Of a stretch of DNA of 64,000 nucleotides, positions 15,716-32,288 are shown piece by piece. Numbering within the stretch: the first letter of the stretch is position 1; every line of letters begins with the position of its first letter. A model generated the notes under the pieces. The model was not told the DNA's origin. It saw only the letters and a program-made list of their open reading frames with translations, and made no database searches. A program made the position numbers and the translations under genes. The DNA is from Streptomyces sp. TLI_235 (GTDB lineage Bacteria > Actinomycetota > Actinomycetes > Streptomycetales > Streptomycetaceae): NCBI GenBank assembly GCA_002300355.1, contig NSGV01000001.1, positions 1,736,001 to 1,800,000 of the forward strand, written 5' to 3'.

Positions 15716-15739
15716 CGGTGGGACCTCCTCGGATCGGGA

Positions 15740-16765: not shown

Positions 16766-16814
16766 GGCGGTGGACTTCCTTCCTCGGGCGGTTCGGTGCA
16801 GTGGACGGGCCCGG

Positions 16815-18440: not shown

Positions 18441-18513
18441 GGTGTTTCCTCGGTCGGTTCGGCGGTGCGGACGGTGCGGGGGACCTCGGGCGGTTCAAGG
18501 GGTGGCGGGCGGT

Positions 18514-19302
18514 TCAGGGGGTGGCGGGGCGGCCGGTGGCGGCTTCCAGCAGGGCCCGGGTGTACGGGTGGGCCGGCGCGGACCACAGCTCGGCGGCCGG
18601 GCCCTCCTCCAGCACCCGGCCGTTCCGCAGCACGAGCACCCGGTGGGCCACGTGCCGGACGACGGCCAGGTCGTGCGAGATGAACAGGTAGGCGAGGCCG
18701 GTGGCCTCCTGGAGCCCGGTCAGCAGGTCGAGCAGGCGGGCCTGCACACTGCGGTCCAGGGCGGACGTCGGCTCGTCGCAGACCACCAGGTCGGGGCCGG
18801 CGGCCAACGCCCGTGCCACCGCCACCCGCTGCACCTGCCCGCCGGACAGCTCCCGCGGGAAGCGGCGGGCCAGAGCCGGATCCAGGCCGACCTGGTGGAA
18901 CAGCGCCGCCACCGCCTCGGGCCGCTCGCGGCGCGGCGTGCCGTGCAGGCGCAGCGCGAAGGCCACCGCCTCGCCCGACCGCAGGGCGGGGTTGAGGGAG
19001 CCGCGCGGATGCTGGGGGACGAACTGGAGCTCGGCGCGGACGGCGCGGCCGCGGCGGCCGCGCAGCCGGGACGGGTCCTGGCCGGCGAAACGGACGGTGC
19101 CGGTGTCCGGGCGGAGCAGGCCGAGGGCGAGCCGGGCGAGAGTGGACTTCCCGGAGCCGGACTCGCCGACCAGGCCGAGGGTCTCCCCGGCGCGGACGGT
19201 GAGGTCGACGCCGTCGAGCGCGAGGCGCGGGCCGAAGTGCTTTGTCACTTTGTCGATGTGGAGCAGCGGGACGGTGCGTGCGGCGTCGGCGGGCCGGGTC
19301 AT
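18514..19302 (-). CDS. ABC importer ATPase (DppF/OppF-like)
   Basis: 262-residue ATP-binding subunit. Walker A is GESGSGKST (about residues 48-56), the Q-loop Gln lies in FVPQHP, the ABC signature is ELSGGQVQRVAVARAL and Walker B ends DLVVCDEPTSALD. The switch His is in FISHDLAVV. The sequence matches the second (F-type) ATPase of oligopeptide importers. The C-terminal oligopeptide-transporter extension is shortened to HPYTRALLEA plus a few residues. The 82-bp gap to the other ATPase gene contains the short palindrome GGCCCCATGGGGGCC, without a convincing promoter. Confidence 0.92.
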   Translation of the reverse strand: MTRPADAARTVPLLHIDKVTKHFGPRLALDGVDLTVRAGETLGLVGESGSGKSTLARLALGLLRPDTGTVRFAGQDPSRLRGRRGRAVRAELQFVPQHPRGSLNPALRSGEAVAFALRLHGTPRRERPEAVAALFHQVGLDPALARRFPRELSGGQVQRVAVARALAAGPDLVVCDEPTSALDRSVQARLLDLLTGLQEATGLAYLFISHDLAVVRHVAHRVLVLRNGRVLEEGPAAELWSAPAHPYTRALLEAATGRPATP

Positions 19303-19384
19303 CGGGCCACCGTCCCGGGGATGCCCCCACCCGCGAGGGAAGGCCCCATGGGGGCCGGGCTTCTCCTGGTGGCGGTGGTGGCGG

Positions 19385-20164
19385 TCATCGGGGCGCTCCC
19401 GGGTCGGCGGCGACCAGGGTCGCGGTGAAGGTGTGGGCGGGGTCGTCGAGGACGCGGGTGGCGGGGCCGCGTTCGACGACGCGGCCGGCCTGCATGACGG
19501 CGACCTCGCCGCCGATCCGGCGGGCGGCCGCCAGGTCGTGGGTGACGAGCAGCAGGGCGATGCCGCAGTCGGTGCGGAGGGTGCCGAAGAGGTCGAGGAT
19601 GCGGCTGCGGACGAGGGCGTCCAGGGCGGTGGTCGGTTCGTCGGCGATGAGCAGTTCGGGGCCGCAGGAGACGGCGACGGCGATCGCGGCGCGTTGGCGG
19701 AGACCGCCGGAGAGTTCGTGCGGGTGGGCGCGGGCGACCCGTTCGGGGTCGGGGACGCCGGCGGTGGCGAGCAGTCGGAGGGCGTCGGCGAGGGCGGCCC
19801 GGCGGGAGTCGGCGGCCTTGTGGCGGCGCAGCACCTCGGTGATCTGCGGGCCGATCCGGCGCAGCGGGTCGAGGACGGCGGCAGGGTCCTGCGGGACGTA
19901 GCCGATGCGGCGGCCGCGGATCCGGCCGAGGGCGCGTTCGTCGAGGCCGAGCAGGTCGGTGCCGGCGAGCCGGATGCGTCCGGTGACGGCGGCGCCGCGG
20001 CCGGGCAGGCCGAGGATGCTGCGGGCGACGGTGGTCTTGCCGCTGCCGGATTCGCCGAGCAGGACGAGGGCGCCGCCGGCGGCGAGGTCGAGGGTGACGC
20101 CGTCGGCGGCCCGGACGCCGCCGGGGTGGGTGACGGTGAGGTCGTCGACGCGGAGCAGGCTCAT
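19385..20164 (-). CDS. ABC importer ATPase (DppD/OppD-like)
   Basis: 259-residue ATP-binding subunit and partner of the F-type ATPase. Walker A is GESGSGKTT (about residue 36), the signature is ELSGGLRQRAAIAVAV (Gln replaced by Leu in LSGGQ, as is common in D-type subunits), and Walker B is ELLIADEPTTALD. The ATG at 20164 overlaps the permease stop codon as ATGA and aligns with family starts, whereas the reading frame upstream to 20332 is antisense-like filler. It lacks the long C-terminal 4Fe-4S extension of some OppD proteins. Translation is coupled to the permease, as expected for stoichiometric assembly. Confidence 0.92.
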   Translation of the reverse strand: MSLLRVDDLTVTHPGGVRAADGVTLDLAAGGALVLLGESGSGKTTVARSILGLPGRGAAVTGRIRLAGTDLLGLDERALGRIRGRRIGYVPQDPAAVLDPLRRIGPQITEVLRRHKAADSRRAALADALRLLATAGVPDPERVARAHPHELSGGLRQRAAIAVAVSCGPELLIADEPTTALDALVRSRILDLFGTLRTDCGIALLLVTHDLAAARRIGGEVAVMQAGRVVERGPATRVLDDPAHTFTATLVAADPGAPR

Positions 20165-21003
20165 CGGACGGCCTCCGGCAGCAGTGCGCCGCGGTCGCCG
20201 ATGCGCTGCCGCAGCCCCTCCCCCAGGGTGGTGAACACCACCGAGACGGCGAGCACGGCCAGGCCCGGCAGTACCGCGGGCCAGGGGTGGGTGAACAGGG
20301 CGGGCCGCAGTTCGTCGAGCATGGCGCCCCATTCGGGGGTGGGCGGGGTGACGCCCAGCCCGAGGAAGGAGAGCCCGGCGGCGTAGGCGACGGCGAGGCC
20401 GACCAGCGAGGAGGCGTAGACGAGGACAACCGGGGCGACCACCGGGACGACCTGGCGCAGGGCCACGGTGAGCGGGCCGGCGCCGGAGACCCGGGCGGCC
20501 TCCAGGTACTCGGCGGTGCGGATCCGCCGGACCTCGGTGTAGGCGACCCGGGCGACGGCGGGGGTGAGAACCACGGAGAGGGCGAGCAGGGTCGCGCCGA
20601 GGCCGGGCCTCAGCAGGGTGGCGACGGCGATCGCCAGCAGCACGCCGGGGAAGGCGTACAGCACGTCGAGGGTGCGCAGCAGGGCCTGTTCGAGGATCCG
20701 CCCGCCGAGGCCGGCCGTGATGCCGAGCAGGGTGCCGGCGGCGGTGGCGGCGGCGACGGGCACCAGGCCGCCGGTGAGCGAGGCCCGGCCGGCCCAGATC
20801 AGCCGGCTGAGCAGGTCGCGGCCCTGGCTGTCGGTGCCGAGCGGGTGGCCGGGGCTGCCGGGGTCGAGGAGGCGGTCCTGCAGGTGGCCGGCGGTCGGGT
20901 CGTACGGGGCGAGCAGTGGTGCGGCGGCGGCGACGAGGACGACGAGCAGCGCGAGTGCGGCGGGGACGGCGACGGCGGGGTCCCGGAGCGGGCTGCGGGC
21001 CAT
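20161..21003 (-). CDS. ABC importer permease (DppC-like)
   Basis: 280-residue inner-membrane subunit. A first helix (ALALLVVLVAAAAPLLAPYDP) is followed by the family's N-terminal motif GHPLGTDSQGRDLLSRLIWAGR. Further helices follow, and the EAA loop that contacts the ATPase is seen as YLEAARVSGAGPLTVALRQV. The C-terminal segment GLSFLGLGVTPPTPEWGAML is diagnostic for the DppC/OppC class. It starts 1 bp after the DppB-like gene ends and overlaps the next ATPase gene. Confidence 0.92.
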   Translation of the reverse strand: MARSPLRDPAVAVPAALALLVVLVAAAAPLLAPYDPTAGHLQDRLLDPGSPGHPLGTDSQGRDLLSRLIWAGRASLTGGLVPVAAATAAGTLLGITAGLGGRILEQALLRTLDVLYAFPGVLLAIAVATLLRPGLGATLLALSVVLTPAVARVAYTEVRRIRTAEYLEAARVSGAGPLTVALRQVVPVVAPVVLVYASSLVGLAVAYAAGLSFLGLGVTPPTPEWGAMLDELRPALFTHPWPAVLPGLAVLAVSVVFTTLGEGLRQRIGDRGALLPEAVR

Positions 21004-21004
21004 C

Positions 21005-21949
21005 TCAGGTCCTCGTCCGCGGGTCGATGGCGGCGTGCGCGGTGTCGACGACGAGGTTGACGCCGACGAAGCCGGTGGCGACGACCAGCACCCCGCCCTG
21101 GACGAGCGGCAGGTCGCGGGCGGCGAGCGCGTCGTACAGCAGCCGGCCGAGGCCGGGCCAGGCGAACAGGGTCTCCACGAAGACCACCCCCTCCAGCAGG
21201 TAGGCGAGTTGCAGGCCGCCGATGGCGAGCAGGGCGGGCGAGGCGTTGTGCACGCAGTGCCGCAGGACGGCGGCCCGGGAGAGGCCGCGGGCGCGCAGTC
21301 CGTCGGCGAGGTCGCCGGCGAGGACGGTGCCGAGGGCGGCGCGGAAGACCCGGGCGGTGAGACCGAGCGGGACGAGGGCGGCGGCGACGGCGGGCAGCAC
21401 CAGGTGCCGGGCGAGGTCGGCGGCGCCGCCGTCGCCGAACACGTCGTGGGTGCCGCCGGCGGGCAGCCAGCGCAGCCGGACGGCGACCACGGCGATCAGC
21501 ACCAGCGCCACCGAGTACTGCGGGGCGGAGACCGCGAGGGTGGAGGCGGCGCCGGAGAGCCGGCCGAGCGGGCCACGCGGCCGGAGCGCGCCGAGGGCGC
21601 CGAGCAGGACGCCGCCGACGAGGACGAGCAGGAAGGCGGCGGCGGTGAGGGTCAGGGTCTGGCCGATCGCGGGGAGCAGCAGCCGGCCGACCGGCCGCTG
21701 GTCGGCGATCGAGGTGCCGAGGTCGCCGGTGAGGGCGTGCCGCAGCCAGGAGAGGTACTGGACGGGCAGCGGGCGGTCCAGGCCGAGGCGGGCGGTGAGT
21801 TCGGCGCGGGCCTCGGGGGGTGCGCCGGGGCCGAGGAAGGCGGCCACCGGGTCGCCGGGGACGAGGGCGACGGTGGCGAAGACCACGACGGTGACGCCGA
21901 GCAGGGTCGGGACGGCCAGCAGCAGGCGGCGGAGCAGGAATCCGGTCAC
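21005..21949 (-). CDS. ABC importer permease (DppB-like)
   Basis: 314-residue permease and first gene of the importer operon. It begins FLLRRLLLAVPTLLGVTVVV, the usual DppB start, with FLGPGAPPEARAELTARLGL and LDRPLPVQYLSWLRHALTGD in the first loop. The cytoplasmic coupling loop contains LRARGLSRAAVLRHCVHNA, and FVETLFAWPGLGRLLYDAL matches the conserved late segment. The GTG start has GGAGGG upstream. The promoter must lie in 21950-22200, between this gene and the divergent leaderless ORF/LuxR region, but no clean -35/-10 pair is visible on this strand. Confidence 0.92.
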   Translation of the reverse strand: MTGFLLRRLLLAVPTLLGVTVVVFATVALVPGDPVAAFLGPGAPPEARAELTARLGLDRPLPVQYLSWLRHALTGDLGTSIADQRPVGRLLLPAIGQTLTLTAAAFLLVLVGGVLLGALGALRPRGPLGRLSGAASTLAVSAPQYSVALVLIAVVAVRLRWLPAGGTHDVFGDGGAADLARHLVLPAVAAALVPLGLTARVFRAALGTVLAGDLADGLRARGLSRAAVLRHCVHNASPALLAIGGLQLAYLLEGVVFVETLFAWPGLGRLLYDALAARDLPLVQGGVLVVATGFVGVNLVVDTAHAAIDPRTRT

Positions 21950-22205
21950 CCGCCGGCCCTCCGGGGCGGGGCGCCGGGCGGGACGGCGGGCGGGCTGGGC
22001 ATGGCGGGTGTCCTTCCGGGCGGTTCGAGGGTGCGGCCGGTCCCGCGGCCTGGGCCTGCGGTGTTCGCTGTGACGAAGGTTGCGGTCGGGCGGAGCGGAC
22101 AGCCAGTCAGGAGTTCATGCTGATACCGCCGGTCATAGGAGCCGGTGCCGTGACGGGTGGGACTCCGTTTGCCGCTGCCCCGCCCGGCAGGGGCCCGTCC
22201 TGTCC

Positions 22206-22235
22206 TTGACCTGCTGCGAGAGCCGGACCTAGGGT
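22206..22235 (+). promoter_or_regulatory. sigma70-type promoter driving a leaderless ORF
   Basis: TTGACC (22206-22211) is followed after 18 bases by TAGGGT (22230-22235), close to the HrdB consensus. The ATG of the 32-codon ORF begins six bases after the -10 box, at the expected transcription start, so the message would be leaderless. This is probably also the promoter for the LuxR gene downstream. Confidence 0.55.
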
Positions 22236-22241
22236 GCTCAT

Positions 22242-22340
22242 ATGGCTTATCGGCGGACCGACTTCACCCATGTCGGGATCGGCGGCTCGTGGCACCGCAG
22301 GTGCTTCGACGAGCTGTGTCCGCGCCGCGTCCCGCGCTGA
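22242..22340 (+). CDS. 32-residue leaderless small ORF, possible leader peptide
   Basis: An ATG at the predicted transcription start opens a 32-codon frame: MAYRRTDFTHVGIGGSWHRR, then CFDELCPRRVPR, then TGA. It has two cysteines four residues apart, many arginines, a tryptophan and two histidines, and no membrane helix. Lack of a ribosome binding site fits leaderless translation, common in actinobacteria. It lies 209 bp upstream of the LuxR gene; the gap contains a GC-rich inverted repeat (22428-22445), so a leader-peptide or attenuation role is plausible. A structural or toxin peptide, or chance, are alternatives. A second very short frame (22506-22562, 18 codons, MPYRTDSPSDQGGSRWQH) overlaps the LuxR start and loosely resembles it. 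Confidence 0.4.
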   Translation: MAYRRTDFTHVGIGGSWHRRCFDELCPRRVPR

Positions 22341-22549
22341 CCGCCCGGCGACCGCCCGCCGCCCGGCCGGCGCCCCTCCTCCTTCCGGGATCCGCCCCCG
22401 CCCGCCGTCTCCGCCTGCCCGGAGTCGGCCGCCGCGGTCGGCGGCTCCCCGCCGTTGTGCCGCGCCCGTCCGGCCGGCCCGCCACCTCCGAGGGGACGCA
22501 CCGCCATGCCGTACCGCACCGACTCGCCCTCCGACCAGGGGGGTTCGCG

Positions 22550-23455
22550 ATGGCAACACTGACCCAGCTGGCCGTGCCGACCGGGCCGCGCAACTGCCGG
22601 CACCCGGTCCGCCGGACCCCGCGCGCTGCGGCCGCCGCACCGGTGGACACGCTGCACGCCGAGATCGACAATCCGCTCGACCTGCTGGCCGGCCACCAGT
22701 TGCTCGCCGATCCCGCCCCGGAGCCGCCGGGCAGACCGGGCACGGCGGCCGCCGGCTGCCCCTGCGGCCACCCGATGTGCCCGGGTGACGGCCACCGGCC
22801 GGACACCGTCCGGGTGTTCCTGGTGGAGCGGCACCCGGTGGCCGCGGCCGGGCTGCGCTCGGTGCTGTCCACGGTGCCCGGGCTGACGGTGGCCGGCTCG
22901 GCCGCCGACCCGCTGCGCGCGCTGCCCGCGGTCCGGCGGGTCCGCCCGGACGTGCTGCTGCTGGGCCGCGGCGGCGGCCTCGGCGAGGACCTGGCGGCGG
23001 TGGCGGCGCTGCGCGGGCCGGACGGTGCGCCGGACGCGCGGGTGCTGCTGCTGCGGCGGGCGGAGTCCACCGCCGAGGCGAGCCGGATCCTGCTGGCCGG
23101 CGCCAGTGGTTGCTTCCCGCTCGACCTGCCCGAGGAGCGGATCATCTCTGCCGTCCAACTCGCCGCCGCGGGCGGCTCGGTGTTCCTCCCGGCGCCGCCC
23201 GCGGCCCGCAGCCACGCCGCCTGGCCGCCCGGGCAGCCGGCCGAGCCCCCGCCGCAGCAGGTCGGGCTGACCGCACGGGAGCGGGAGGTCCTCGCCAAGC
23301 TCGCGCTCGGGCTGAGCAACGCCGAGATAGGGCGCGAACTCGCCCTCGCGGAGGCCACCGTGAAGAAGCACCTGACGCAGGCGATGCGCAAGACCGGCCA
23401 CTCCGACCGGCTGCGCGCCGCGCTGTACGCGCACCGGCACGGCCTGGCCGGCTGA
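22550..23455 (+). CDS. orphan LuxR/NarL-type regulator with degenerate receiver
   Basis: 301-residue DNA-binding protein. The N-terminal ~85 residues are unusual and contain a Cys/His cluster, GCPCGHPMCPGDGH. Residues ~87-205 fold like a NarL-type receiver, but the phosphorylation machinery is lost. The acidic pair is replaced (VERHP for VDDHP). The phosphoacceptor Asp is Gly (RPDVLLLGRGGGLG). The conserved Thr and Lys positions are Arg and Leu (LLLRRAES, CFPLDL). The C-terminal LuxR helix-turn-helix (about residues 239-300) is intact: LTAREREVLAKLALGLSNAE and EATVKKHLTQAMRKTG. No histidine kinase is adjacent. The ATG follows GGGGGG. It lies just upstream of the five-gene operon at 23727-29176 on the same strand and is its likely regulator, probably controlled by abundance or a ligand rather than phosphorylation. 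Confidence 0.85.
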   Translation: MATLTQLAVPTGPRNCRHPVRRTPRAAAAAPVDTLHAEIDNPLDLLAGHQLLADPAPEPPGRPGTAAAGCPCGHPMCPGDGHRPDTVRVFLVERHPVAAAGLRSVLSTVPGLTVAGSAADPLRALPAVRRVRPDVLLLGRGGGLGEDLAAVAALRGPDGAPDARVLLLRRAESTAEASRILLAGASGCFPLDLPEERIISAVQLAAAGGSVFLPAPPAARSHAAWPPGQPAEPPPQQVGLTAREREVLAKLALGLSNAEIGRELALAEATVKKHLTQAMRKTGHSDRLRAALYAHRHGLAG

Positions 23456-23474
23456 GCACCCGCCGCACCACCGC

Positions 23475-23513
23475 CCGGAGGGCGGGTCCCGTCGCACGGG
23501 GCCCGCCCTCCGG
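23475..23513 (+). terminator. strong hairpin terminator after the LuxR gene
   Basis: Inverted repeat CCGGAGGGCGGG ... CCCGCCCTCCGG with further CCC/GGG pairing around the loop GTCGCAC. It begins 20 bases after the luxR stop codon and has no T-tract, as usual in streptomycetes. It separates the regulator transcript from the operon downstream. Confidence 0.7.
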
Positions 23514-23520
23514 CGCGTCC

Positions 23521-23567
23521 GGGGACGACGGGCGACCGGTCGACGGACGCGGGGACGAAGGGCGACC
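23521..23567. repeat. 17-bp direct repeat upstream of the biosynthetic-like operon
   Basis: GGGGACGACGGGCGACC (23521-23537) recurs as GGGGACGAAGGGCGACC (23551-23567), one mismatch, with a 30-bp period (about three helical turns). It lies 50-100 bp upstream of the putative promoter at 23623-23650, a position suited to an activator binding side by side. Confidence 0.5.
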
Positions 23568-23622
23568 TTCGGAGCACATCGACGCCGCCGATCGTCGCCC
23601 GGGGCGGCTCCGTTCGGGGCTT

Positions 23623-23650
23623 CTGACGGCACGTCGGCGCTTCGTAGCGT
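23623..23650 (+). promoter_or_regulatory. possible promoter of the five-gene operon
   Basis: CTGACG (23623-23628), a 16-base spacer and TAGCGT (23645-23650) form a weak sigma70-like promoter. A transcript would begin near 23657, about 70 bases before the first gene. The weak boxes and the direct repeat upstream suggest a need for an activator. Confidence 0.35.
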
Positions 23651-23726
23651 GGCGACGAGCGAGGCGGAGCCCGAAGGCCGCCACGCCCCCACGTCTCAGG
23701 CCACGTCCGGCCGAAGGGAGAGCCCG

Positions 23727-24515
23727 ATGGGCGACGCGTCCGACGGCACCATCGCACACACCGGCGACCGGGCCGGCCCGGCACCGGCGCATCCGCCCGC
23801 CACCACGGCCGTCCTGGCCGCGCACCGGGACGGCGGCCACCGGCCCGAACCGCAGCGCTCGCCGTACCGGTCGATGCCGGACGCCGAACGCTCCGCCCTG
23901 TGGCGCCGCCGCCTGCACGAGGCCGAGGCCGGGCTCACCCGGTACCTGGTCTCCCGCGGCGACGAGGTGCAACTGGCCGACTGGTTCGCCCTGCAGGCGG
24001 AGATCTTCGCCGACCTGCCCGACCCGGCCACCGCGCCCGCCGCCGAGTGGCAGCGGGTCTTCTTCCGCGGGCAGGCGCTGATGGAGCGCTTCCTGGTCGC
24101 CCGGTACGGCGAGCAGGTGCTGGCGGACTGGGCACGGTCCAACGCCGAGGTGCACCGCGAGGTGGAACCCGACCTCGGCCGGGGCGCCGCCGACCCGATC
24201 CACCGGATCGCCCGGCAGGCCGAACTCTACGGCTCCGACTACGAGTTCGACGAAGACGAGCCGCCCGGCGCGGACCGCGCGGCGCTGACCATCACGCACT
24301 GCGCGATCTGGGACTACCGGGAGAAGGCCCGCCGCGGCGGCGTCCGGCTCACCCTCGCCTCCCCGTGCACCTACTGCACCGAGGCGCTGTCCGCGAACAT
24401 CCGCGCCAAGGGCTACCGCCCCGCGCACCGGCTGCGCAGCGGCCCCACCGGCCACGGCTGCCGCTGGGAGGCCGCCCGCCCCGACCAGCAGACCGACGAA
24501 ACCCGGGAGTCCTGA
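23727..24515 (+). CDS. ATC-hydrolase-like protein, first gene of coupled operon
   Basis: 262-residue cytoplasmic protein. The first ~45 residues are low-complexity; a helical middle part (RSALWRRRLHEAEAGLTRYL, then AEWQRVFFRGQALMERFLVA) follows. The C-terminal ~75 residues hold a cysteine motif, CTYC near residue 214 and a late Cys in GPTGHGCRWE, preceded by ITHCAIWDYREKARRGG. This layout resembles proteins of the L-2-amino-thiazoline-4-carboxylate (ATC) hydrolase family, which share such a C-terminal Cys pattern and are often found in natural-product clusters. The match is by pattern only. The ATG has GGGAG seven bases upstream, and the stop overlaps the next start (TGATG). It may process a sulfur- or nitrogen-containing ring, or bind the pathway substrate. 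Confidence 0.6.
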   Translation: MGDASDGTIAHTGDRAGPAPAHPPATTAVLAAHRDGGHRPEPQRSPYRSMPDAERSALWRRRLHEAEAGLTRYLVSRGDEVQLADWFALQAEIFADLPDPATAPAAEWQRVFFRGQALMERFLVARYGEQVLADWARSNAEVHREVEPDLGRGAADPIHRIARQAELYGSDYEFDEDEPPGADRAALTITHCAIWDYREKARRGGVRLTLASPCTYCTEALSANIRAKGYRPAHRLRSGPTGHGCRWEAARPDQQTDETRES

Positions 24516-26344
24516 TGTGCGGAGTGACCGGCTGGGTCGACTGGGAGACCGACCTGCGCCACCAGGAGCGCCTGCTCCGGGAGATGACCGCCACCCTGGC
24601 CTGCCGCGGCCCGGACGCGGACGGCCTGTGGCTGTCCCGGCACGCCGCGATCGGCCACCGCCGGCTGTCGGTGATCGACCTGGACGGCGGCGCCCAGCCG
24701 CAGGCCGACACCGCCCCGCCCGGCGTCGTCCTCGGCTACAACGGCGAGCTGTACAACCACCGCGAGCTGCGCCGCGAACTCGAAGCCCTCGGGCAGGTGT
24801 TCCGCACCCGCTCGGACACCGAGGTGGTGCTCCGTGCCCACCTCGCGTGGGGCCGCGAGGCGCCGCGCCGCTTCAACGGCATCTTCGCGTACGCCCTGTG
24901 GGACGCCCGCGCCGAGGAGCTGCTGCTCGTCCGGGACCGCCTCGGCATCAAACCGCTGTACTGGCACGCCCACCGCACCGGGGTGCTGTTCGGCTCGGAG
25001 CCCAAGGCGCTGCTGGCGAACCCGCTGCTGCCCGCCGAACTCGACGCCACGGGCGTCGCCGAGCTGTTCGCGCTGCCCGCCGCGCCGACGCCGGGGCACG
25101 GCCTGTTCCGCGGGCTGCACGAGGTGCGGCCCGGCCACCTGGTCGCCGTCACCCGGAGCTCCACCCGCGAACTGCGCTGGTGGGCACTGCAGTCGCAGCC
25201 GCACGACGACGGCGAGCAGGCCACCCGCGAGCGGGTGCGGGCGCTGCTGGCCGACGCGGTGGAACGCCAGCTGGTCAGCGACGTGCCGCTGTGCACCCTG
25301 CTCTCCGGCGGCGTCGACTCCAGCGCGATCACCGCGCTGGCCGCCGCCGCCCGGGAACGGGCCCGCCAGGGCAAGATCACCAGCTTCTCGGTGGACTTCC
25401 CCGGCAGCGCCGAGCGCACCCCGGACGCCTGGCGCACCACCCGCGACGCCCCGTTCGTGCAGGCCGCCGCGGAGCACATCGGCACGCTGCACACCTCCGT
25501 CCTCGTCCCCGACGACGACCTGCTGGACGCCCGGGCCGCGGTGCTCCGTGCCCGCGACCGGCCCGGCTGGGGCGAGATGGACGCCTCGCTGCACCTGCTC
25601 TTCCGCGAGGTGCGGCGGCGCTCCACCGTCGCGCTGTCCGGCGAGGCCGCGGACGAGATCTTCGGCGGCTACCCGTACTTCCACGACCCGGCCGCGCTGG
25701 CCTCCGGCACCTTCCCCTGGCTGCACGGCCGCACCACCCCGGCCGCGCTGCTGCGGCCCGAGGTGCGCGCCGAGGTCCGGCCCGGGGAGTACACCGCGGA
25801 GGCGTACCGGCGCACCCTCGCCGAGGTGCCGCGACTGCCGGGCGAGGCGCCCGCGGACGCGAAGGTGCGCGAGGTGTTCCACCTGGCGCTGACCCGCTGG
25901 CTGCCGCCGCTGCTGGACCGGGTCGACCGGGTCTCGATGTCGGTCGGCCTGGAGGTTCGGGTGCCGTTCTGCGACCACCGGCTGGTGGAGTACCTGTGGA
26001 ACGTGCCGTGGGCGCTCAAGGCCCCCGGCGGCCGCTCCAAGGGGCTGCTGCGGGACGCCGTCCGCGACCTGCTGCCGCCGCAGGTCACCGACCGGCCCAA
26101 GAGCGGCTACCCGTCGACCCCGGCCGTCCGCTACACCGAGGTGCTCACCGCCCGCGCCCGGGACCTGCTCGCCGACCCGAACGCCCCGGTCTTCGACCTG
26201 GTCGACCGGGCACTCGTCCGCCGGCACCTCGCCGAGGGGCGGCCGCTGCCGAGCCCGCGCACCGCACCGAACCCGGTCGGCGGCCTGGACCACCTCGTCC
26301 AGGTCGACGAGTGGCTGCGCGCCTACCGGGTGGGGCTGCGATGA
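24515..26344 (+). CDS. asparagine synthase-like glutamine amidotransferase
   Basis: 609-residue AsnB-type enzyme. The N-terminal nucleophile is Cys2 (MCGVTGW), exposed after Met removal, and the Ntn-glutaminase domain covers residues ~2-205 (LGYNGELYNHRELRREL, RDRLGIKPLYW). The ATP-pyrophosphatase domain begins near residue 220, with the PPi loop LSGGVDSSAI at about 263-272. Later family patterns are SGEAADEIFGGYPYFHD and VGLEVRVPFCDHRLVEYLWN. All catalytic elements for amide formation from glutamine and an adenylated carboxylate look intact. Because it is locked in an operon with a hydroxylase and a methyltransferase (TGATG and ATGA overlaps on both sides), it probably amidates a pathway acid rather than making cellular asparagine. 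Confidence 0.9.
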   Translation: MCGVTGWVDWETDLRHQERLLREMTATLACRGPDADGLWLSRHAAIGHRRLSVIDLDGGAQPQADTAPPGVVLGYNGELYNHRELRRELEALGQVFRTRSDTEVVLRAHLAWGREAPRRFNGIFAYALWDARAEELLLVRDRLGIKPLYWHAHRTGVLFGSEPKALLANPLLPAELDATGVAELFALPAAPTPGHGLFRGLHEVRPGHLVAVTRSSTRELRWWALQSQPHDDGEQATRERVRALLADAVERQLVSDVPLCTLLSGGVDSSAITALAAAARERARQGKITSFSVDFPGSAERTPDAWRTTRDAPFVQAAAEHIGTLHTSVLVPDDDLLDARAAVLRARDRPGWGEMDASLHLLFREVRRRSTVALSGEAADEIFGGYPYFHDPAALASGTFPWLHGRTTPAALLRPEVRAEVRPGEYTAEAYRRTLAEVPRLPGEAPADAKVREVFHLALTRWLPPLLDRVDRVSMSVGLEVRVPFCDHRLVEYLWNVPWALKAPGGRSKGLLRDAVRDLLPPQVTDRPKSGYPSTPAVRYTEVLTARARDLLADPNAPVFDLVDRALVRRHLAEGRPLPSPRTAPNPVGGLDHLVQVDEWLRAYRVGLR

Positions 26345-26868
26345 GCGCGCCCGCCCGCCCGGCGCCGGCCCTCGACGAGGCCTTCCGGGCCGCCGCCCGC
26401 CGCTGGACGACCGGCGTCGCGGTGGTCACCACCCGCTCCGGCGAGGAGGTGTTCGCCAAGACGGTCTCGTCGTTCTGCACCCTCTCGCTGGACCCGCTGC
26501 TGGTCAGCGTGGCCGTCACCCGGCACAGCCCGCTGGCGGCCGCGGTCCGCGGCAGCGGCCGGTTCGCACTCTCCGTCCTGACCGACCGTCAGATAGCGGC
26601 GGCCCGGCGGTTCGCCACCCCGGGCGCGGGACGGGCACTCGGGGAGTTCACCGCCGTGCCGATGCGCGCCGAGGCCACCGGCGCACCCGTTCTCGAAGCC
26701 GCGCTCGCCTGGTTCGACTGCCGGCTGCACGGCGTCCTGCCCGGCGGTGACCACGTCCTGCTGGTCGGCAGGGTCGCCGCCGCGGAGGCCGTCCCCGGCG
26801 AACCGCTGCTCTACCACGACGGCCAGTACCACACACTCGCCCATCCCTCACCTGGAGTTGGCGCATGA
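26341..26868 (+). CDS. flavin reductase (HpaC-like)
   Basis: 175-residue NAD(P)H:flavin oxidoreductase of the flavin-reductase-like split-barrel family. Visible signatures are RRWTTGVAVVTT near the N-terminus, then FCTLSLDPLLVSVAVTRHSP and FALSVLTDRQIAAARRF. The late GGDHVLLVGRV and PLLYHDGQYHTL close the barrel. It overlaps both neighbours by ATGA and directly precedes the HpaB/PvcC-type monooxygenase. Together they should form a two-component system in which this enzyme supplies FADH2. Confidence 0.9.
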   Translation: MSAPARPAPALDEAFRAAARRWTTGVAVVTTRSGEEVFAKTVSSFCTLSLDPLLVSVAVTRHSPLAAAVRGSGRFALSVLTDRQIAAARRFATPGAGRALGEFTAVPMRAEATGAPVLEAALAWFDCRLHGVLPGGDHVLLVGRVAAAEAVPGEPLLYHDGQYHTLAHPSPGVGA

Positions 26869-28337
26869 CCCTGCTCGACACCCCCGCCACCGCGCGGGGC
26901 CTGCTCACCGGCGACCGGTACCGGGCCGAGCTCGACGACGGGCGCGAGCTCTACCTCGACGGCAAGCGGATCGGCAACCCCGCCGAGCACCCCGCCTTCC
27001 GGCCCGCCGCCGACGAACTCGCCCGCCTGCTCGACCTGCAGCACGACCCCGAGCACCGCGAGCTGCTCACCTGGAAGGACCCGGAGACCGGCCTCAGGCT
27101 CGCGCGCGCCTACCAACCGCCGCGCACCCCGGAGGAGTTGCAGGTGCAGCGGCGCAGCGCCGAGTTCTGGCACGCCGAGGCGCTCGGACAGCAGGGCCGC
27201 TCCCCCGCCTTCATGGCCTCGATCGCCGTCGGCGTGTACGACTTCCGGCACCGGCTGGCCGGCAACGACCCGCGGTTCGGCGCCAACGCCGAGGCCTGGT
27301 ACCGGCACTGCGCGACCAACGACCTCGTCCTGTCGCACGCGCTCGGCGACCCGCAGATCGACCGCTCCGCCGACCCGGTGGAGGAGCCCGACCTGGCGCT
27401 GCGGGTGCTGGAGGAGAACGACCGGGGCATCGTGGTGCGCGGCGCCAAGCAGCTCACCACGCTGGCGCCGCTCGCCCACGAGGTGCTGGTGTACCTGTCG
27501 GCGTCGTTCGCGCAGCGCCGCGGCGAGCAGTTCGTGGTCTGGTTCGCGCTGCCGCTGAACACCCCGGGCCTGGTCACCCTGGCCCGGGAGCCGCTCGGCA
27601 GCGCCCCCTGGGGCCACGCCCATCCGCTCGGCGCCCGCTTCGACGAGCAGGACGCCATGCTGTTCTTCGACGACGTGCTCGTCCCCTGGGACCGCGTCCT
27701 GCTGCTCCGCGACGCCGACCTCGCCCGGGTCGGCCTCGGCCGGATCAACGCCTGGAGCGCGTACATCGGCCACGTCCGCTACCGGGAGCGGCTACGCGCC
27801 CTGCTCGCCACCGCCACGCTGGTCGCCGAGTCGATCGGCGTGGACGGCTTCCGCAACGTCCAGGAGGACCTCGGCCGGCTCGCCGGGTACGCCGAGCTCA
27901 CCGAGTACTTCCTGGACGCCGCCGAGGCCCGCGGCGGCGTCACCGACGGCGGCCTGTTCGCACCCGGCGACACCGCCGCCTCCCGGGTGTGGTCGGCCGA
28001 GGTGGCCGCCGAGGCGGTCGCGATCGTCCGCCGGATCGGCGCCTCCGGCCTGCTGATGCAGCCCACCGCCGGCGACCTCGCCAACCCCCGGTTGCGGCCG
28101 CACCTCGACCGGTACATGCGCGGCCGCGGCATCGACGCGGAACGCAAGTCCCGGCTGTTCCGGCTCGCCTGGGAGCTCACCGGCGACGGCTTCGGCCAGC
28201 GCCAGGACCTCTACGAGTACGTGCACCGCGGCGACCTCGCCCGCAACCGGATCAACCTGTTCAAGCGCTACGACCAGAGCGCCGCCCGCACGCGGCTGCT
28301 GCAGCTCGTCGACAACCCCCAGGAGGCCCAGCAGTGA
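26865..28337 (+). CDS. FADH2-dependent aromatic monooxygenase (HpaB/PvcC family)
   Basis: 490-residue oxygenase component of the 4-hydroxyphenylacetate 3-hydroxylase type. Typical elements are RGLLTGDRYRAELDDGRELY at the start and LDLQHDPEHRELLTWKDPE. The central substrate/flavin region has GIVVRGAKQLTTLAPLAHEV and DDVLVPWDRVLLLRD. The late helical region holds NPRLRPHLDRYMRGRGIDAE. It would ortho-hydroxylate a phenol (or carry out a related oxidation, as PvcC does) with FADH2 from the reductase encoded just before. Coupled to the next gene by a GTGA overlap. The native substrate may be a tyrosine-derived acid or a later intermediate; its distance from catabolic genes argues against simple 4-hydroxyphenylacetate degradation. 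Confidence 0.9.
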   Translation: MTLLDTPATARGLLTGDRYRAELDDGRELYLDGKRIGNPAEHPAFRPAADELARLLDLQHDPEHRELLTWKDPETGLRLARAYQPPRTPEELQVQRRSAEFWHAEALGQQGRSPAFMASIAVGVYDFRHRLAGNDPRFGANAEAWYRHCATNDLVLSHALGDPQIDRSADPVEEPDLALRVLEENDRGIVVRGAKQLTTLAPLAHEVLVYLSASFAQRRGEQFVVWFALPLNTPGLVTLAREPLGSAPWGHAHPLGARFDEQDAMLFFDDVLVPWDRVLLLRDADLARVGLGRINAWSAYIGHVRYRERLRALLATATLVAESIGVDGFRNVQEDLGRLAGYAELTEYFLDAAEARGGVTDGGLFAPGDTAASRVWSAEVAAEAVAIVRRIGASGLLMQPTAGDLANPRLRPHLDRYMRGRGIDAERKSRLFRLAWELTGDGFGQRQDLYEYVHRGDLARNRINLFKRYDQSAARTRLLQLVDNPQEAQQ

Positions 28338-29176
28338 CCGCGTCCGCCGTCGAGATCCAGGCCCGCACCCTCGCCGGGTACGCCGACGCCAGCCGGCTCC
28401 GCCAGGTGCACGACCGCGACTGGGTGCTCGACCTCCTGCCCGACGGGCCGCAGACCCTGGTCGACCTCGGCAGCGGCATCGGCCAACTGCTGCAGGCCGC
28501 CCTCGAACGCTTCCCCTCGCTGCGGGTCGCCGTCGGCCTGGAACGCTCCGAGCACCGGATCGCCGAGGCCGCCGAACGCCTCCACGCGTACGGCGCCCGG
28601 GTCGCCCTGCACCAGGCCGACCTCACCGACCCGCAGCCACTGCCGCACCGGCCGGACGCGGTCACCATGACCTCCGTCCTGCACTGGCTGTTCCCGCACG
28701 AGGAGCGGATCTTCGCCTGGGCGGCCCGGCACCTCGCCCCCGGCGGGCAGTTCCTGCTCACCACCTACCACCCGGCCCGCGACGAGCACGGCCTCGGCGG
28801 CGAGGACGACATCGTCCGCGACGCCCTGGTCGCCCTCGGCACGGCACGCGCGGACGTGCCCGGCCTGTTCGCCGCGGCCGGCGTGCTGCCGATCGCCACC
28901 CGCACCCGCACCGTCGACGACCTGGCCCGCGTGCTGCGACCGCGCCTCGCCGTCGCCGGCCACCGGGAGCGGGACGCCGTCGTCACCGTGGAGAGCGCCG
29001 AACAGTACGCGCACTTCCACGCCGCCACCTTCGGCGACTACTACAGCCGCCTCGCACCGCCGGACCTGCGCGCCGACTTCTTCCGCGCCGTCGGCGAGGC
29101 CGCCCGGCAGCGGCAGCGGCAGCTCGGCCACGTCAGCCACATGCCCGTCCGCCTCTGGCAGCTCACCACGCACTGA
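28334..29176 (+). CDS. SAM-dependent methyltransferase, last gene of the operon
   Basis: 280-residue class I methyltransferase. Motif I is TLVDLGSGIGQLLQAAL (about residues 40-56), the acidic end of strand 2 is VGLERSEHRIAEAA, and the motif around VTMTSVLHWLFPHEERIF gives strand 4. HLAPGGQFLLTTYHP is strand 5. The C-terminal ~100 residues are helical and would form the substrate lid. The GTG start overlaps the stop of the hydroxylase gene, so the product is probably made with it. An O-methylation of the newly introduced hydroxyl group is the simplest reading; N- or C-methylation is possible. Confidence 0.88.
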   Translation: MTASAVEIQARTLAGYADASRLRQVHDRDWVLDLLPDGPQTLVDLGSGIGQLLQAALERFPSLRVAVGLERSEHRIAEAAERLHAYGARVALHQADLTDPQPLPHRPDAVTMTSVLHWLFPHEERIFAWAARHLAPGGQFLLTTYHPARDEHGLGGEDDIVRDALVALGTARADVPGLFAAAGVLPIATRTRTVDDLARVLRPRLAVAGHRERDAVVTVESAEQYAHFHAATFGDYYSRLAPPDLRADFFRAVGEAARQRQRQLGHVSHMPVRLWQLTTH

Positions 29177-29281
29177 CGCGCCGTCAACAGGCCGTCGGCC
29201 GACCGCCGCACCTCCCGCGACGGCCGGCCGGGGGCGCCTACGCTGGACCCGACCGCACCACCTCCGCCCGAGGAGCCCACC

Positions 29282-30130
29282 GTGTCAACTCCCGCCGCGA
29301 GCCAGGAACTCGGCGCCTTCCTGCGCGCCCACCGCGAACTGCTCAAGCCCGCCGACGTCGGCCTCACCGCCACCGCCCGCCGCCGCACCCCCGGGCTGCG
29401 CCGCGAGGAGGTCGCCTCGCTCTCCGGCGTGGGACTCGCCTGGTACACCTGGCTGGAGCAGGGCCGCGTCACCGCCTCCCGGCAGGTCCTGGAGGCGGTC
29501 GCCCGCGCGCTGCGCCTCGACGCGGCGGGGCTGCGGCACGCCATGCGGCTCGCCGGCTACCACGAGCCCGCCGCCCCGGGCGGCGACACCGGCCCGGACC
29601 GGCTCGCCGCCGCCGTCCAGCCCGTCCTCGACTCCTGGCCGACCAGCCCCGCCGTCCTGCTCGACCGGCACTTCGACCTGCTCGGCTGGAACACCCCCTG
29701 GGCCGCGCTCTGGGGCCCGCCCGAGGCCGTCCCCGCCGACCGCCGCAACCTCATGTGGCTGATGGCCGCGGACCGCCGGCTGCGCGAGGTCCTGCACGAC
29801 TGGGAGCCGCTCGCCATGAACGTCTTCCAGCACTTCCGCGCCCAGGCCGGCCCCGCCCTCGCCGACCCGCGCACCGGCGAGGTCTACCGCCACCTGGACG
29901 CCGACGCGCCGGAGCTCCGCCACTGGTGGGGATGCCACTCCGTGGCGGAGCTCACGGTCCGCACGGTCACCGTCGAACCGGCCGGCATCGGCCCCGTCCG
30001 GCTGACCCTTTCGTCCTTCCACCCGGTCGACGACCCGACCGCCCTCGTCCTCCTCTTCACCCCCGCCGACCCCGCCGCCCGCACCCGCATGACCGCGCTC
30101 CTCGACCACCCCCTCCGCAGCGCGGGCTAG
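29282..30130 (+). CDS. helix-turn-helix regulator with MmyB-like ligand domain
   Basis: 282-residue regulator. Residues ~8-80 form an XRE-type helix-turn-helix preceded by the family's RRTPGLRREEVASLSGVGLA and WYTWLEQGR pattern. Residues ~105-275 match the MmyB-like PAS-type ligand-binding domain: LLDRHFDLLGWNTPWAALWG, then RNLMWLMAADRRLREVLHDW and VYRHLDADAPELRHWWGCHS. The GTG start has GAGGAG six bases upstream. It ends 8 bp from the convergent MFS gene, a common partner for such regulators, and follows the methyltransferase gene by 105 bp. Its target may be the pump or an enzyme elsewhere; nothing in the sequence decides this. Confidence 0.88.
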   Translation: MSTPAASQELGAFLRAHRELLKPADVGLTATARRRTPGLRREEVASLSGVGLAWYTWLEQGRVTASRQVLEAVARALRLDAAGLRHAMRLAGYHEPAAPGGDTGPDRLAAAVQPVLDSWPTSPAVLLDRHFDLLGWNTPWAALWGPPEAVPADRRNLMWLMAADRRLREVLHDWEPLAMNVFQHFRAQAGPALADPRTGEVYRHLDADAPELRHWWGCHSVAELTVRTVTVEPAGIGPVRLTLSSFHPVDDPTALVLLFTPADPAARTRMTALLDHPLRSAG

Positions 30131-30137
30131 GCCCCGG

Positions 30138-31358
30138 TCAGGCCCGCTGCAGGCGCGCGGTCACCAGCCACCCGCCGGCCGCCGCGACGACCGCCAGCCC
30201 GACGCCGACCGCGCCGGCCCCCACCGTGACGTCCGCGAAGGAGCCGACCGCCCAGGCGCCGAGCCCCGTCCCCGCGTACATCGTCGAGGTCAGCCAGGCA
30301 CTGGAGGTGGCCCGCAGCTCCGGCGCCGCCGTCCCCGCCAGCGTCTGCTGGTCGGTCACGAAGCCTCCCGAGGCGAGGAACCACACCGTCACGCCGGCGA
30401 GTGCGAGGACGATTCGGGGCCCGCCGACGGCCAGTCCGATGCCGGCCGCCAGCAGCAGGCCCCAGAGCGGCAGCAGCGGCAGGTTGTCCCGTCCGGCGGC
30501 CCGCGCCCGGTCCCCGAGCCGTCCGCCGAGGAGAGATCCGACCACGCTGCCGGCGCCGACGAGCACGCCGACCAGGCCCAGCGCCTCCACCGAGAGGTCG
30601 AACCGCTGCACCAGCACCGCCCCGAGGAAGGTGTACGCGCCGAGGTTGGCCGCGTGGAAGACGGTGTTGACGAGCAGGGCCCGCCGCAGCGCCGGATCAG
30701 CCCAGCCCGCGAGCACGGCCCGGAGCGCACCGCCAGCCTGCCCCTGCACCGCCGAGCCGCCGGCCTGCCTGAGCAGCAGCGGCACGGCCGCCGCCGTCCC
30801 GACCGCGAGCGCCCAGAAGGCGGAGCGCCAGCCGGCCAGCCCGGTGAGGAAGCCGCCGAGCGGAACCCCGATCACCTGGCCGGCGGAGAACAGGGCCATG
30901 CCGAGGCCGAGGGCGCGCCCGCGGACGGCGTCCGGTGCGGTCTCCGCGATGTGTGCCCAGATCGCCGGTCCGGCCGCGGCGGCGGCGAGCCCGGCCACGG
31001 CGCGGGAGACGACGAGCAGGGTCCGCCCGGTGGAGAGTGCCGCGGCGGCGTTGGAGAGCACGAAGAGCAGCGTCCCCGCGATCAGTGTGCGCCGCCGGCC
31101 GAACCGGTCGCTGAGCAGCCCGAGGAAGGGCGCGAAGACCGCGTACACCAGGACGTACGCGGTGACGCTGGAGGCCGCGGCGGCCTCGCTCACCCGGATC
31201 GAGTCGGCGATGGTCGGCAGCAGCGGGGAGACCAGGAAGGTCTCGGTGCCGAACAGGAACAGCAGCAGGAAGACTCCGGCGTACCGCAGCCGGTCGAACG
31301 GCTGCGCCGGCGCTTCGGAGGTCGGCGGCGACGCGGACACACTGGTCACGGCCCTCAC
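30138..31358 (-). CDS. MFS transporter (12 TM)
   Basis: 406-residue major facilitator with about 12 hydrophobic segments. Motif A between helices 2 and 3 is present (FLGLLSDRFGRRRTLIAG), and the second-half equivalent is GSLLGGRLGDRARAAGR. The central loop is short, as in DHA1-type drug exporters and sugar-efflux proteins. The start is uncertain: GTG 31358 and GTG 31349 are both possible, with GAAGGG better placed for the latter. The neighbouring MmyB-like regulator is convergent, and the sterol-desaturase-like gene is divergent, sharing a ~145-bp intergenic region. Substrate unknown. Confidence 0.88.
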   Translation of the reverse strand: MRAVTSVSASPPTSEAPAQPFDRLRYAGVFLLLFLFGTETFLVSPLLPTIADSIRVSEAAAASSVTAYVLVYAVFAPFLGLLSDRFGRRRTLIAGTLLFVLSNAAAALSTGRTLLVVSRAVAGLAAAAAGPAIWAHIAETAPDAVRGRALGLGMALFSAGQVIGVPLGGFLTGLAGWRSAFWALAVGTAAAVPLLLRQAGGSAVQGQAGGALRAVLAGWADPALRRALLVNTVFHAANLGAYTFLGAVLVQRFDLSVEALGLVGVLVGAGSVVGSLLGGRLGDRARAAGRDNLPLLPLWGLLLAAGIGLAVGGPRIVLALAGVTVWFLASGGFVTDQQTLAGTAAPELRATSSAWLTSTMYAGTGLGAWAVGSFADVTVGAGAVGVGLAVVAAAGGWLVTARLQRA

Positions 31359-31502
31359 ACCCTTCGGGAGGCCCTTCGCGGGCAGATGGACTCAGGCCGG
31401 GCCATCGTGTGCCGGTGCCGGGCGGCCAACCAGACAGGCGATCATCCTGTGACCGCCGCTCACAGGCTCCCGCGCGTCCCGGGCACGTGGCAGGCTGGGG
31501 CG

Positions 31503-32288
31503 GTGGACGGATTCCTAGGGTGGGCCGCCCGGTTGGGCACGGGCGAGGTGGTGGCGGGGGCGCTGCTGTTCAACGTCGGGCTGCTCGCCGCGGCGGTGGC
31601 CGGGGGGCAGCTGCTGGTCCGGCGGTACGGCGACCGGCGGGTGGCACCCGTCCCCGGGCCGGTGACCGGCGCGGAGATCGCGCTGACGGTGGTCGCGGTC
31701 GTGCTCAACAGCGGTGTGGGGGTGGCCGGCTGGGCGCTGTGGAAGGCGGGCCGGATCAGCCTGTCCGCCGCGACCGGCCCGCGGGTGCTGCTCGAACTCC
31801 TGGCGTTCACCCTGGTCATGGACGCGCTGGCGTACGCGGGGCACTGGATCGCGCACCGCCGCCGGCTGTACCGGCTGGCGCACGAGATGCACCACCGCTA
31901 TCCGGATCCCCGGCCCTCGACGCTGTTCGTGCTGCACCCGCTGGAGGTGATGGGCTTCGGCGGGGCGTGGCTGACGATCCTGACGGTGTGGGAGCTGTCG
32001 GCGCTCGCGCTCGGCGGGTTCGTGCTGCTCAACCTGGTGTTCGGGCTGCTCGGCCACCTCGGGGTGGAGCCGCTGCCGGCCCGGGTGCGGCGGTGGCCGC
32101 TGTTCCGCTGGGTGGCGCTGCCGATGTTCCACGTCGGCCACCATCTCGACCCGGGCGTGAACTTCGGTTTCTACACGACCGTGTGGGACCGCCTGTTCGG
32201 CACCGTCGACCCGGCGTACGACCGGATGCGACACGCCGTCGACCCTGCCGCGGCCCGGCTGTCGGATGCCCTTCAATCACCGGCATGA
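31503..32288 (+). CDS. sterol desaturase / fatty acid hydroxylase superfamily protein
   Basis: 261-residue integral membrane di-iron oxygenase-like protein with about five membrane helices. The histidine clusters expected for the iron site are in order: HWIAH (about residue 113), HEMHH (about residue 129) and HVGHH (about residue 214). It would hydroxylate or desaturate a membrane lipid. The GTG at 31503 is preceded by GGGGC; a GTG at 31449 in the same frame is an alternative. It overlaps the HIT gene by ATGA, an unusual coupling. The physiological substrate is unknown. Confidence 0.87.
   Translation: MDGFLGWAARLGTGEVVAGALLFNVGLLAAAVAGGQLLVRRYGDRRVAPVPGPVTGAEIALTVVAVVLNSGVGVAGWALWKAGRISLSAATGPRVLLELLAFTLVMDALAYAGHWIAHRRRLYRLAHEMHHRYPDPRPSTLFVLHPLEVMGFGGAWLTILTVWELSALALGGFVLLNLVFGLLGHLGVEPLPARVRRWPLFRWVALPMFHVGHHLDPGVNFGFYTTVWDRLFGTVDPAYDRMRHAVDPAAARLSDALQSPA

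Follow-up and report, generated by a model that had tools for sequence, protein, structure and literature searches.

Organization of the locus

The window examined here is a stretch of 64,000 nucleotides from Streptomyces sp. TLI_235 (contig NSGV01000001.1, positions 1,736,001 to 1,800,000). It contains a conserved block of 15 genes at 14621–31340 (Table 1), inside which lies an operon of five plus-strand genes, beginning with that for P0001. The preliminary description had these five genes chained by TGATG, ATGA, ATGA and GTGA overlaps, and the sequence agrees: the P0001 and AsnB genes share one nucleotide in TGATG, ATGA links AsnB to the flavin reductase and the latter to HpaB, and GTGA joins HpaB to the methyltransferase (MT). 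Because of these overlaps all five products are predicted to be translationally coupled. The Pfam domains likewise bear out the identities first assigned to AsnB, the flavin reductase, HpaB and the methyltransferase. The domain scan, which covered 54 of the 57 genes called in the window, revealed no NRPS, PKS or carrier domain, as noted at the outset; the other three calls are of 53–69 aa.

Table 1. Features of the conserved cluster (positions in the window)
Feature	Position	Strand	Remarks
LLM-B, luciferase-like monooxygenase	14621-15715	-	nearest solved structure: SsuD alkanesulfonate monooxygenase
LLM-A, luciferase-like oxidoreductase	15740-16765	-	nearest solved structure: F420-dependent Mer
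Solute-binding protein SBP_bac_5, Opp/Dpp-type importer	16815-18440	-	
Importer ATPase 1	18514-19302	-	
Importer ATPase 2	19385-20164	-	
Importer permease 1	20161-21003	-	
Importer permease 2	21005-21949	-	
LuxR-type regulator	22157-23455	+	start codon uncertain, 22550 alternative
Upstream region of the five-gene operon	23456-23726	+	recurrent words
P0001 (orphan family, hub gene of the cluster family)	23727-24515	+	predicted H-NOX/TRAPP/V4R-like fold
AsnB-type glutamine-dependent amidotransferase	24515-26344	+	GATase_7 and Asn_synthase (Pfam); Cys2, SGGVDSS
Flavin reductase	26341-26868	+	PF01613 Flavin_Reduct
HpaB-family FADH2 monooxygenase, oxygenase component	26865-28337	+	HpaB_N/HpaB (Pfam)
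SAM-dependent class-I methyltransferase (MT)	28334-29176	+	Pfam
MmyB-like XRE regulator	29282-30130	+	HTH_31 and MLTR_LBD
MFS transporter, probable exporter	30138-31340	-	

Relatives of the cluster were located via P0001, giving 42 named loci that encode P0001 relatives; all five operon genes are found in 25 of these, mostly with the same overlaps. Among the 25, a start codon producing a four-nucleotide overlap occurs at the AsnB/flavin reductase junction in 25, at flavin reductase/HpaB in 19 and at HpaB/MT in 20, and one producing a one-nucleotide overlap at P0001/AsnB in 14, as counted by a script that takes the start nearest the stop and so favours overlaps. This recurrence of exact overlaps would appear to exceed chance, the counts being made without a shuffled control.

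The view of the five genes as the whole unit proved too narrow and was rejected, since the importer, LLM, regulator and MFS neighbours accompany the operon in other loci too, and are about as well conserved in identity; two LLMs, the importer, two regulators and the MFS protein bring the unit to 15 genes, all of which are present in 13 of the 42 loci. The right edge is clear: the gene at 31548–32288 is found in only two of these 13 complete loci, 11 of which extend at least 2.6 kb past the MFS gene. The left edge is less sure, the PfkB gene at 13509–14579 being found in L013 (partial sequence), L014 and L017; six of the complete loci extend about 1 kb to that side, and two of these carry it.

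P0001, the first protein of the operon

P0001 had been labelled ATC-hydrolase-like, and "ATC hydrolase" is the UniRef name of two of its relatives. The label did not hold: P0001 gave no Pfam match at E ≤ 10, PF14196 was not among the families matched by 22 members of the P0001 family at E ≤ 1, and the host genome contains no PF14196 match. Five PF14196-type proteins (one below the cut-off) pooled, and three singly, gave probabilities below 1% against A1 in hhalign, with a thin profile. Membership in the ATC hydrolase sequence family was therefore rejected.

Comparison of structural models places the predicted fold of P0001 with the HNOB/V4R/TRAPP group. The accessible text of PMC5847659 likens HNOB (PF07700), V4R (PF02830) and PF14196 to a single domain and on that basis treats them as related. 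The predicted likeness of P0001 to this group extends to a cysteine cluster: C192, C214, C217 and C245 are invariant in 22 of 22 aligned sequences and perhaps represent a putative zinc site. Their spacing is 22, 3, 28, whereas the accessible portion of PMC7108781 gives 22, 3, 8 for the H-NOX protein of S. oneidensis, where the second ligand is His. According to the same portion, His103 is invariant in the set of H-NOX proteins aligned there, whereas no invariant His occurs in the P0001 alignments of 22 or 18 sequences, and the identification of P0001 as a heme-type H-NOX was rejected for want of this proximal ligand. MopR with catechol or phenol ranked 39–40 in one Foldseek list (E ~0.016), with the second P0001 model only, and no V4R structure is among the matches listed in the VIA comparisons of the P0001 model.

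It is conceivable that P0001 acts as a regulatory subunit or as a sensor that binds a ligand, in the manner of the V4R aromatic sensors, and that the chemistry is left to the other four genes. The fold group, as assigned from models, includes the sensors H-NOX and MopR, and a single 539-aa frame in Methylosinus sp. Sm6 (L048) is a P0001 homologue fused to a MT homologue. Yet Pfam reveals no DNA-binding domain in P0001, its gene is the first of the operon, many charged and aromatic residues are invariant in the family, and in L052, where the contig ends just upstream, MT and MFS are the sole representatives of the cluster families beside P0001 and there is little else to catalyse. We consider a sensor unlikely. 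In our preferred reading P0001 would bind and convert the aromatic substrate, working beside the methyltransferase, as the fused homologue in the one Methylosinus genome suggests.

Predicted amidation and hydroxylation

The window AsnB has the GATase_7 and Asn_synthase domains, Cys2 and the SGGxDS signature of AsnB-type amidotransferases, and passes TIGR01536 (473.2 bits, cut-off 267.1). The intact Cys2 and PPi loop (SGGVDSS) of the preliminary description recur beyond the window, as Cys2 and SGG[VL]DS[ST], in all 41 AsnB rows with a start inside the locus sequence; one of the rows is the host genome repeated, one ends at a contig end, and the AsnB proteins of L047 and L050, which start outside the locus sequence, were excluded. 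The first-type AsnB proteins from P0001 clusters form one clade (98/99), proteobacterial loci included.

The solved structure nearest to this AsnB by sequence is 7ylz, TsnB9, which aligns over nearly the full length at 514 bits, against 153.6 bits for E. coli AsnB; TsnB9 is 44% identical to the window protein. This raises the question of whether a TsnB9-like hydroxyamidotransferase makes an aromatic hydroxamic acid here, as S. angustmyceticus makes benzohydroxamic acid via such an enzyme (PMC13418202, accessible portion). The TsnB6/7/9 cassette of trichostatin A and benzohydroxamic acid resembles the cluster in employing an AsnB-type enzyme on a free carboxylic acid. TsnB9, however, acts together with TsnB6 and TsnB7 (PMC13418202, same portion), whereas the window cluster has no AurF-like (TsnB7-type) partner and no PKS; the two AurF-family genes of the host genome, whose presence would favour a hydroxamate, both lie far from it. 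Moreover, TsnB9 falls outside the cluster clade, pairing with another host-genome AsnB with weak support (87/68), though on a long branch, and Dip5, a proposed amide former, is said in the accessible part of PMC13122635 to have TsnB9-like insertions. Hydroxamate formation by TsnB9 logic was rejected because of the missing AurF-family gene and the position of TsnB9 in the tree, and we regard it as very unlikely.

For carboxamide formation by AsnB-type enzymes there are precedents. Dipyrimicin is, we assume, the product of a bipyridine assembly line. In both siderochelin (SidA) and dipyrimicin (Dip5; role proposed), which come from actinobacteria, an AsnB-type enzyme tailors a small aromatic acid that binds metal, and deletion of SidA greatly lowers the amide and raises the acid; the systems differ from ours in their assembly, a PKS route being proposed for siderochelin, and the accessible portions of the two papers make no mention of a P0001 homologue (PMC11481915, PMC13122635). 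The phenazine and dermacozine clusters combine, by annotation, an AsnB homologue (PhzH) with an adjacent DAHP synthase (PhzC) for an aromatic carboxamide, whereas HpaB, P0001 and an importer go unmentioned in the text available (PMC7143476). SoaC offers an AsnB-type carboxamide precedent assayed in vitro (PMC13284220, in part). No phenazine core gene was recognised among the 54 scanned genes of the window besides a distant PNPOx-type gene (45791–46498).

The oxygenase carries the HpaB_N and HpaB domains and adjoins its flavin reductase partner, a likeness to the two-component monooxygenases PvcC and SgcC, which we take to be HpaB-type. Unlike 4-hydroxyphenylacetate 3-hydroxylases, it scores below the TIGR02309 cut-off (325.6 bits, 480.2 needed). 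Arg and His are kept at two aligned positions, presumably R100 and H142 of Thermus HpaB; among 120 homologues the His is present in all and the Arg in 119, the remaining one being gapped. At a further position, which we assume to correspond to Tyr104, the window protein has Phe. Four loci (L046, L047, L049, L050) pair an AMP-binding-like protein of 359 aa with an aldehyde-dehydrogenase-like protein of 470 aa, a pair absent from the window that may resemble, judging by weak Pfam matches, GriC/GriD, presumably the carboxylate reductase of grixazone.

Distribution and proposed role of the cluster

The linkage anticipated across relatives was searched for, and the 25 loci with all five genes speak against a chance gathering of scattered genes. 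AsnB and MFS each occur in 37 of the 42 loci, importer parts in 31, MT in 30, HpaB in 27 and a nearby DAHP synthase in nine. For L038, and in part for L041, L047 and L050, the gene content comes from tblastn, with matches below 60 bits dropped and L055–L061, L064 and L065 excluded from its tabulation, and several loci end at contig ends (e.g., L019, L023, L037), absences there not being losses. Among 61 same-genus genomes P0001 is present in 15, once as a fragment; HpaB (E ≤ 1e-120) occurs in exactly the 14 with near-full-length P0001, whereas the remaining 47, of which 46 are P0001-negative, gave no match at this threshold. The A1 search of the phylum found only the host genome among 396 (seven candidates scored per genome). 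In the class, HpaB at E ≤ 1e-150 was found in two of 394 genomes, with four candidates per genome scored. Besides the host this was G575, in which the 19.9 kb compared contain P0001, HpaB, importer, LuxR, XRE and part of MT, with AsnB and flavin reductase unmatched. A plasmid search gave four weak partial matches.

Three of the 61 genomes (G024, G032, G026; two events) keep the importer without an intact core, and genomes retaining importer, LLM-A and XRE also hold remnants of the missing genes; G026 and locus L054, whose contigs are equally long, look like one and the same record. In G021 and G028, LLM-A and XRE are the sole cluster genes kept. From these sequences we infer that three loss events removed biosynthesis and left uptake or oxygenase genes. 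LLM-A and XRE as an ancestral pair was rejected, if not fully, because a 171-bp piece between these genes in L073 resembles the perm2 upstream region of G026, which fits deletion better.

The cluster is best read as an undescribed, NRPS- and PKS-independent one for a small aromatic carboxamide. Among the matches listed in searches of open-licence papers, judged by titles, the openings of abstracts and selected passages, there was no described pathway with such a cluster, in keeping with the failure to recognise the gene set initially. We propose tentatively, with confidence a little short of even, that the 15 genes turn a shikimate-derived aromatic acid into this carboxamide, for which the MFS protein is the likely exporter and the Opp/Dpp-type system the likely route of re-uptake. 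The hydroxylation, methylation and amidation originally envisaged are plausible from gene content; for the small aromatic or amino-acid-derived acid named there we propose a shikimate-derived one, to which the DAHP synthase near nine of the loci points. The flavin reductase and HpaB would hydroxylate a phenol ring, the methyltransferase would methylate, and AsnB would use glutamine and ATP to amidate the carboxylate. The genes for LLM-A and LLM-B are in line with those of the importer, and the two enzymes would probably act on the compound once it has returned, or on what it breaks down to.

The same arrangement, both LLM genes following the importer genes on one strand, might instead reflect import of a foreign aromatic or peptide-like compound, its oxidation by the LLMs and HpaB, and detoxification or recycling by AsnB and MT, with no de novo synthesis. 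The retention of LLM-A and XRE alone in G021 and G028, the esterases and alpha/beta hydrolases of L034, L037, L038 and L040, and the lack of a scaffold-building enzyme in the window cluster are in its favour. Glutamine- and ATP-dependent amidation is, however, rarely used in degradation, the DAHP synthase and the prevalent MFS gene suit synthesis better, and Xenorhabdus L053 has P0001, two AsnB, MFS and DAHP synthase with the importer queries unmatched in 17.5 kb; we hold this to be somewhat unlikely. Quite unlikely, in our judgement, is an antibiotic cluster with self-protection, in which MFS exports, LLM-A inactivates and XRE senses: the frequency of MFS and the two genomes with LLM-A and XRE but without biosynthesis would suit it, yet a toxin importer would do harm and is kept by the three genomes named above.

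Under the carboxamide reading, the non-producers that keep uptake would fit a molecule circulating between strains. A broader and rather unlikely extension is that P0001 enzymes of H-NOX/V4R fold underlie a novel class of public-good molecules, shikimate-derived aromatic carboxamides formed without an assembly line, exported, perhaps metal-loaded, and re-imported by Opp-type (actinobacteria) or TonB (some proteobacteria) systems, with "cheater" relatives that keep uptake and have lost synthesis. If the proposal is true, actinobacteria and some proteobacteria possess a cluster family whose signature protein gave no significant Pfam-A match in our scans, so that it could be overlooked when genomes are searched by NRPS, PKS or known families. 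The P0001 family would then exemplify the H-NOX/V4R fold at work in biosynthesis. The product's social or nutritional role would be directly testable, because one genus includes strains that produce it, strains with uptake only and strains with remnants.

By gene content the cluster shows the exporter–importer combination expected of a siderophore or metallophore (MFS in 37 and importer in 31 of the 42 loci). Iron control was rejected, as 14001–31500 contains no DtxR-like box, the best match having 7 mismatches in 19 positions to the box that we assumed for DtxR. Zur- and Nur-type boxes gave best matches with five and two mismatches, respectively, in the same scan, made without a chance control. 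Upstream of the operon, words such as ACCTTCGGAG and CGTTCGGGGC recur in up to 13 of the 18 stretches compared (60–900 bases; three longer ones excluded).

The operon and the larger gene unit

The preliminary description had proposed a five-gene operon as the pathway unit. Its five frames and their overlaps are present in the window sequence as claimed, and the search for the same five-family set recovered it complete in 25 of the 42 loci encoding relatives of P0001, the product of the first gene. The linkage thus stands; the real unit is larger, as genes across a stretch of 15 recur alongside the operon, and all 15 are found in 13 of 42 loci (L013-L018, L021, L022, L029-L031, L033 and L036). 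By gene, the counts among the 42 are AsnB and MFS, 37 each; the importer and any luciferase-like protein (LLM), 31 each; methyltransferase, 30; flavin reductase, 29; XRE, 28; HpaB, 27; and DAHP synthase, nine. The right edge of the unit is clear, the left edge less so.

Within the 25 five-gene loci a -4 overlap is available for AsnB/reductase in all 25, HpaB/methyltransferase in 20 and reductase/HpaB in 19, and a -1 overlap for P0001/AsnB in 14. Purine-rich, Shine-Dalgarno-like stretches precede the operon starts by eye, the weakest at the flavin reductase. The window corresponds to G000:C1:1736001-1800000 in a genome of 9.25 Mb, and close homologues occur in Kitasatospora and Streptomyces. 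The upstream region carries the recurrent words ACCTTCGGAG and CGTTCGGGGC and the near-repeat GGGGACGACGGGCGACC / GGGGACGAAGGGCGACC, possibly a regulator site. In L016, the XRE and MFS matches are doubled in mirror image with equal scores, from either inverted duplication or faulty assembly.

Coordinates of the features discussed (window positions unless prefixed)
Feature	Coordinates	Strand	Content
15-gene unit	14621-31340		LLM-B, LLM-A, SBP, two ATPases, two permeases, LuxR, five operon genes, XRE, MFS
Operon	23727-29176	+	P0001, AsnB, flavin reductase, HpaB, methyltransferase
Operon upstream region	23456-23726		words and near-repeat
Mirrored matches	L016:15867-18812		XRE, MFS
Second AsnB	G000:C2:876417-878258		own genome
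AurF-family N-oxygenases	G000:C1:1109257-1110078; G000:C2:955656-956480		own genome
Fused frame	L048:9941-11560		539 aa
Sigma-factor-like gene	35824-36354
Pfam-less protein	36392-37579		395 aa
Pfam-less proteins	57321-59101		303, 283 aa
Putative catabolic unit	50087-55978		arginase-family, TPP-enzyme, symporter, PucR
Molybdopterin oxidoreductase	59126-63181		1351 aa

Enzyme identities and a putative pathway

Pfam secures the assignments of the AsnB, flavin reductase, HpaB and methyltransferase. The window AsnB has Cys2 and SGGVDSS, and Cys2 with SGG[VL]DS[ST] occurs in 41/41 AsnB rows taken from the loci. In the AsnB tree, where several long rows are of unsure placement, the first-type AsnB of P0001 clusters forms a single clade (98/99), outside which fall the hydroxyamidotransferase TsnB9 and an own-genome paralogue. 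A second AsnB of the own genome, 56% identical to that of the window, is placed beside TsnB9 in this tree. The genome also encodes two AurF-family N-oxygenases distant from the cluster.

The window HpaB scores under the cut-offs of both HpaB equivalogs. It keeps the Arg and His, with Phe at the site of a Tyr that we take to be Tyr104 of Thermus HpaB; the triplet is RFH in 115, RYH in four and gapped in one of the best 120 of 716 homologues above threshold.

The best reading is a putative pathway acting on a shikimate-derived acid, which P0001 would bind and alter, HpaB would hydroxylate with FADH2 supplied by the reductase, the methyltransferase would methylate, and AsnB would amidate, the order of steps being hypothetical. 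Searches of open-licence literature for a described cluster of this kind gave none. Precedents for AsnB-type carboxamide formation come from SidA (PMC11481915), PhzH (PMC7143476) and SoaC (PMC13284220), with a proposed role for Dip5 (PMC13122635); hydroxamate formation is covered in PMC13418202, PMC5719088 and PMC11160463.

Probable loss within the genus and variant clusters

P0001 is present in 15 of 61 same-genus genomes, once as a fragment, and HpaB (E<=1e-120) in exactly the 14 others of these and nowhere else among the 61. LLM-A accompanies P0001 in all 15 and occurs in five P0001-negative genomes, in one at just 50% identity. G024 (L072) and G032 (L074) retain the importer, LLM-A and XRE, with LuxR reduced to a stub; G021 (L071) and G028 (L073) retain LLM-A and XRE as sole cluster genes; in G026 (L075/L054) the importer, both LLMs, XRE, MFS and a partially matching LuxR are retained, and P0001 and the methyltransferase survive as stubs. 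Because G024 and G032 are 90% identical across 15.5 kb and G021 and G028 share flanks, we count three putative loss events. The gene stubs and a 171-bp piece in L073 suggest that the direction was loss of biosynthetic genes. The retained frames tested are open to the window-protein length, within a few residues, which means little at this G+C.

P0001 is common to the variant clusters, with its partner genes exchanged. Those of S. noursei, Embleya and Goodfellowiella have, besides a second AsnB, genes for an amidase and an alpha/beta hydrolase; those of S. hiroshimensis, S. albipurpureus, S. harbinensis and S. inusitatus carry a class-II DAHP synthase and an AMP-binding-like/aldehyde-dehydrogenase-like pair. 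Four Streptomyces species (L046, L047, L049, L050) combine this synthase and pair with an LLM and a second-type AsnB. Among the families queried, Xenorhabdus vietnamensis has only P0001, two AsnB, MFS and DAHP synthase; Telmatospirillum and Methylobacterium have P0001, the methyltransferase and MFS, without AsnB in the DNA covered. In Methylosinus sp. Sm6 (L048), the P0001 homologue and cluster methyltransferase are fused in a single frame. Three of five proteobacterial loci have TonB-receptor-like matches, that of L045 checked by Pfam and those of L043 and L048 resting on 26-27% matches to L045; L052 and L053 have no such match. L060 encodes a protein resembling the ATC hydrolase family (PF14196, under cut-off) beside frames that are, by eye, ketosynthase-like and HPPD-like.

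Other genes in the window

Three predicted proteins have zero Pfam matches, the largest following the sigma-factor-like gene. The molybdopterin oxidoreductase is a fusion protein that also carries flavodoxin, FAD-binding and NAD-binding domains. What looks like a catabolic unit comprises genes of arginase-family, TPP-enzyme and sodium:solute symporter type together with a divergently oriented PucR regulator.
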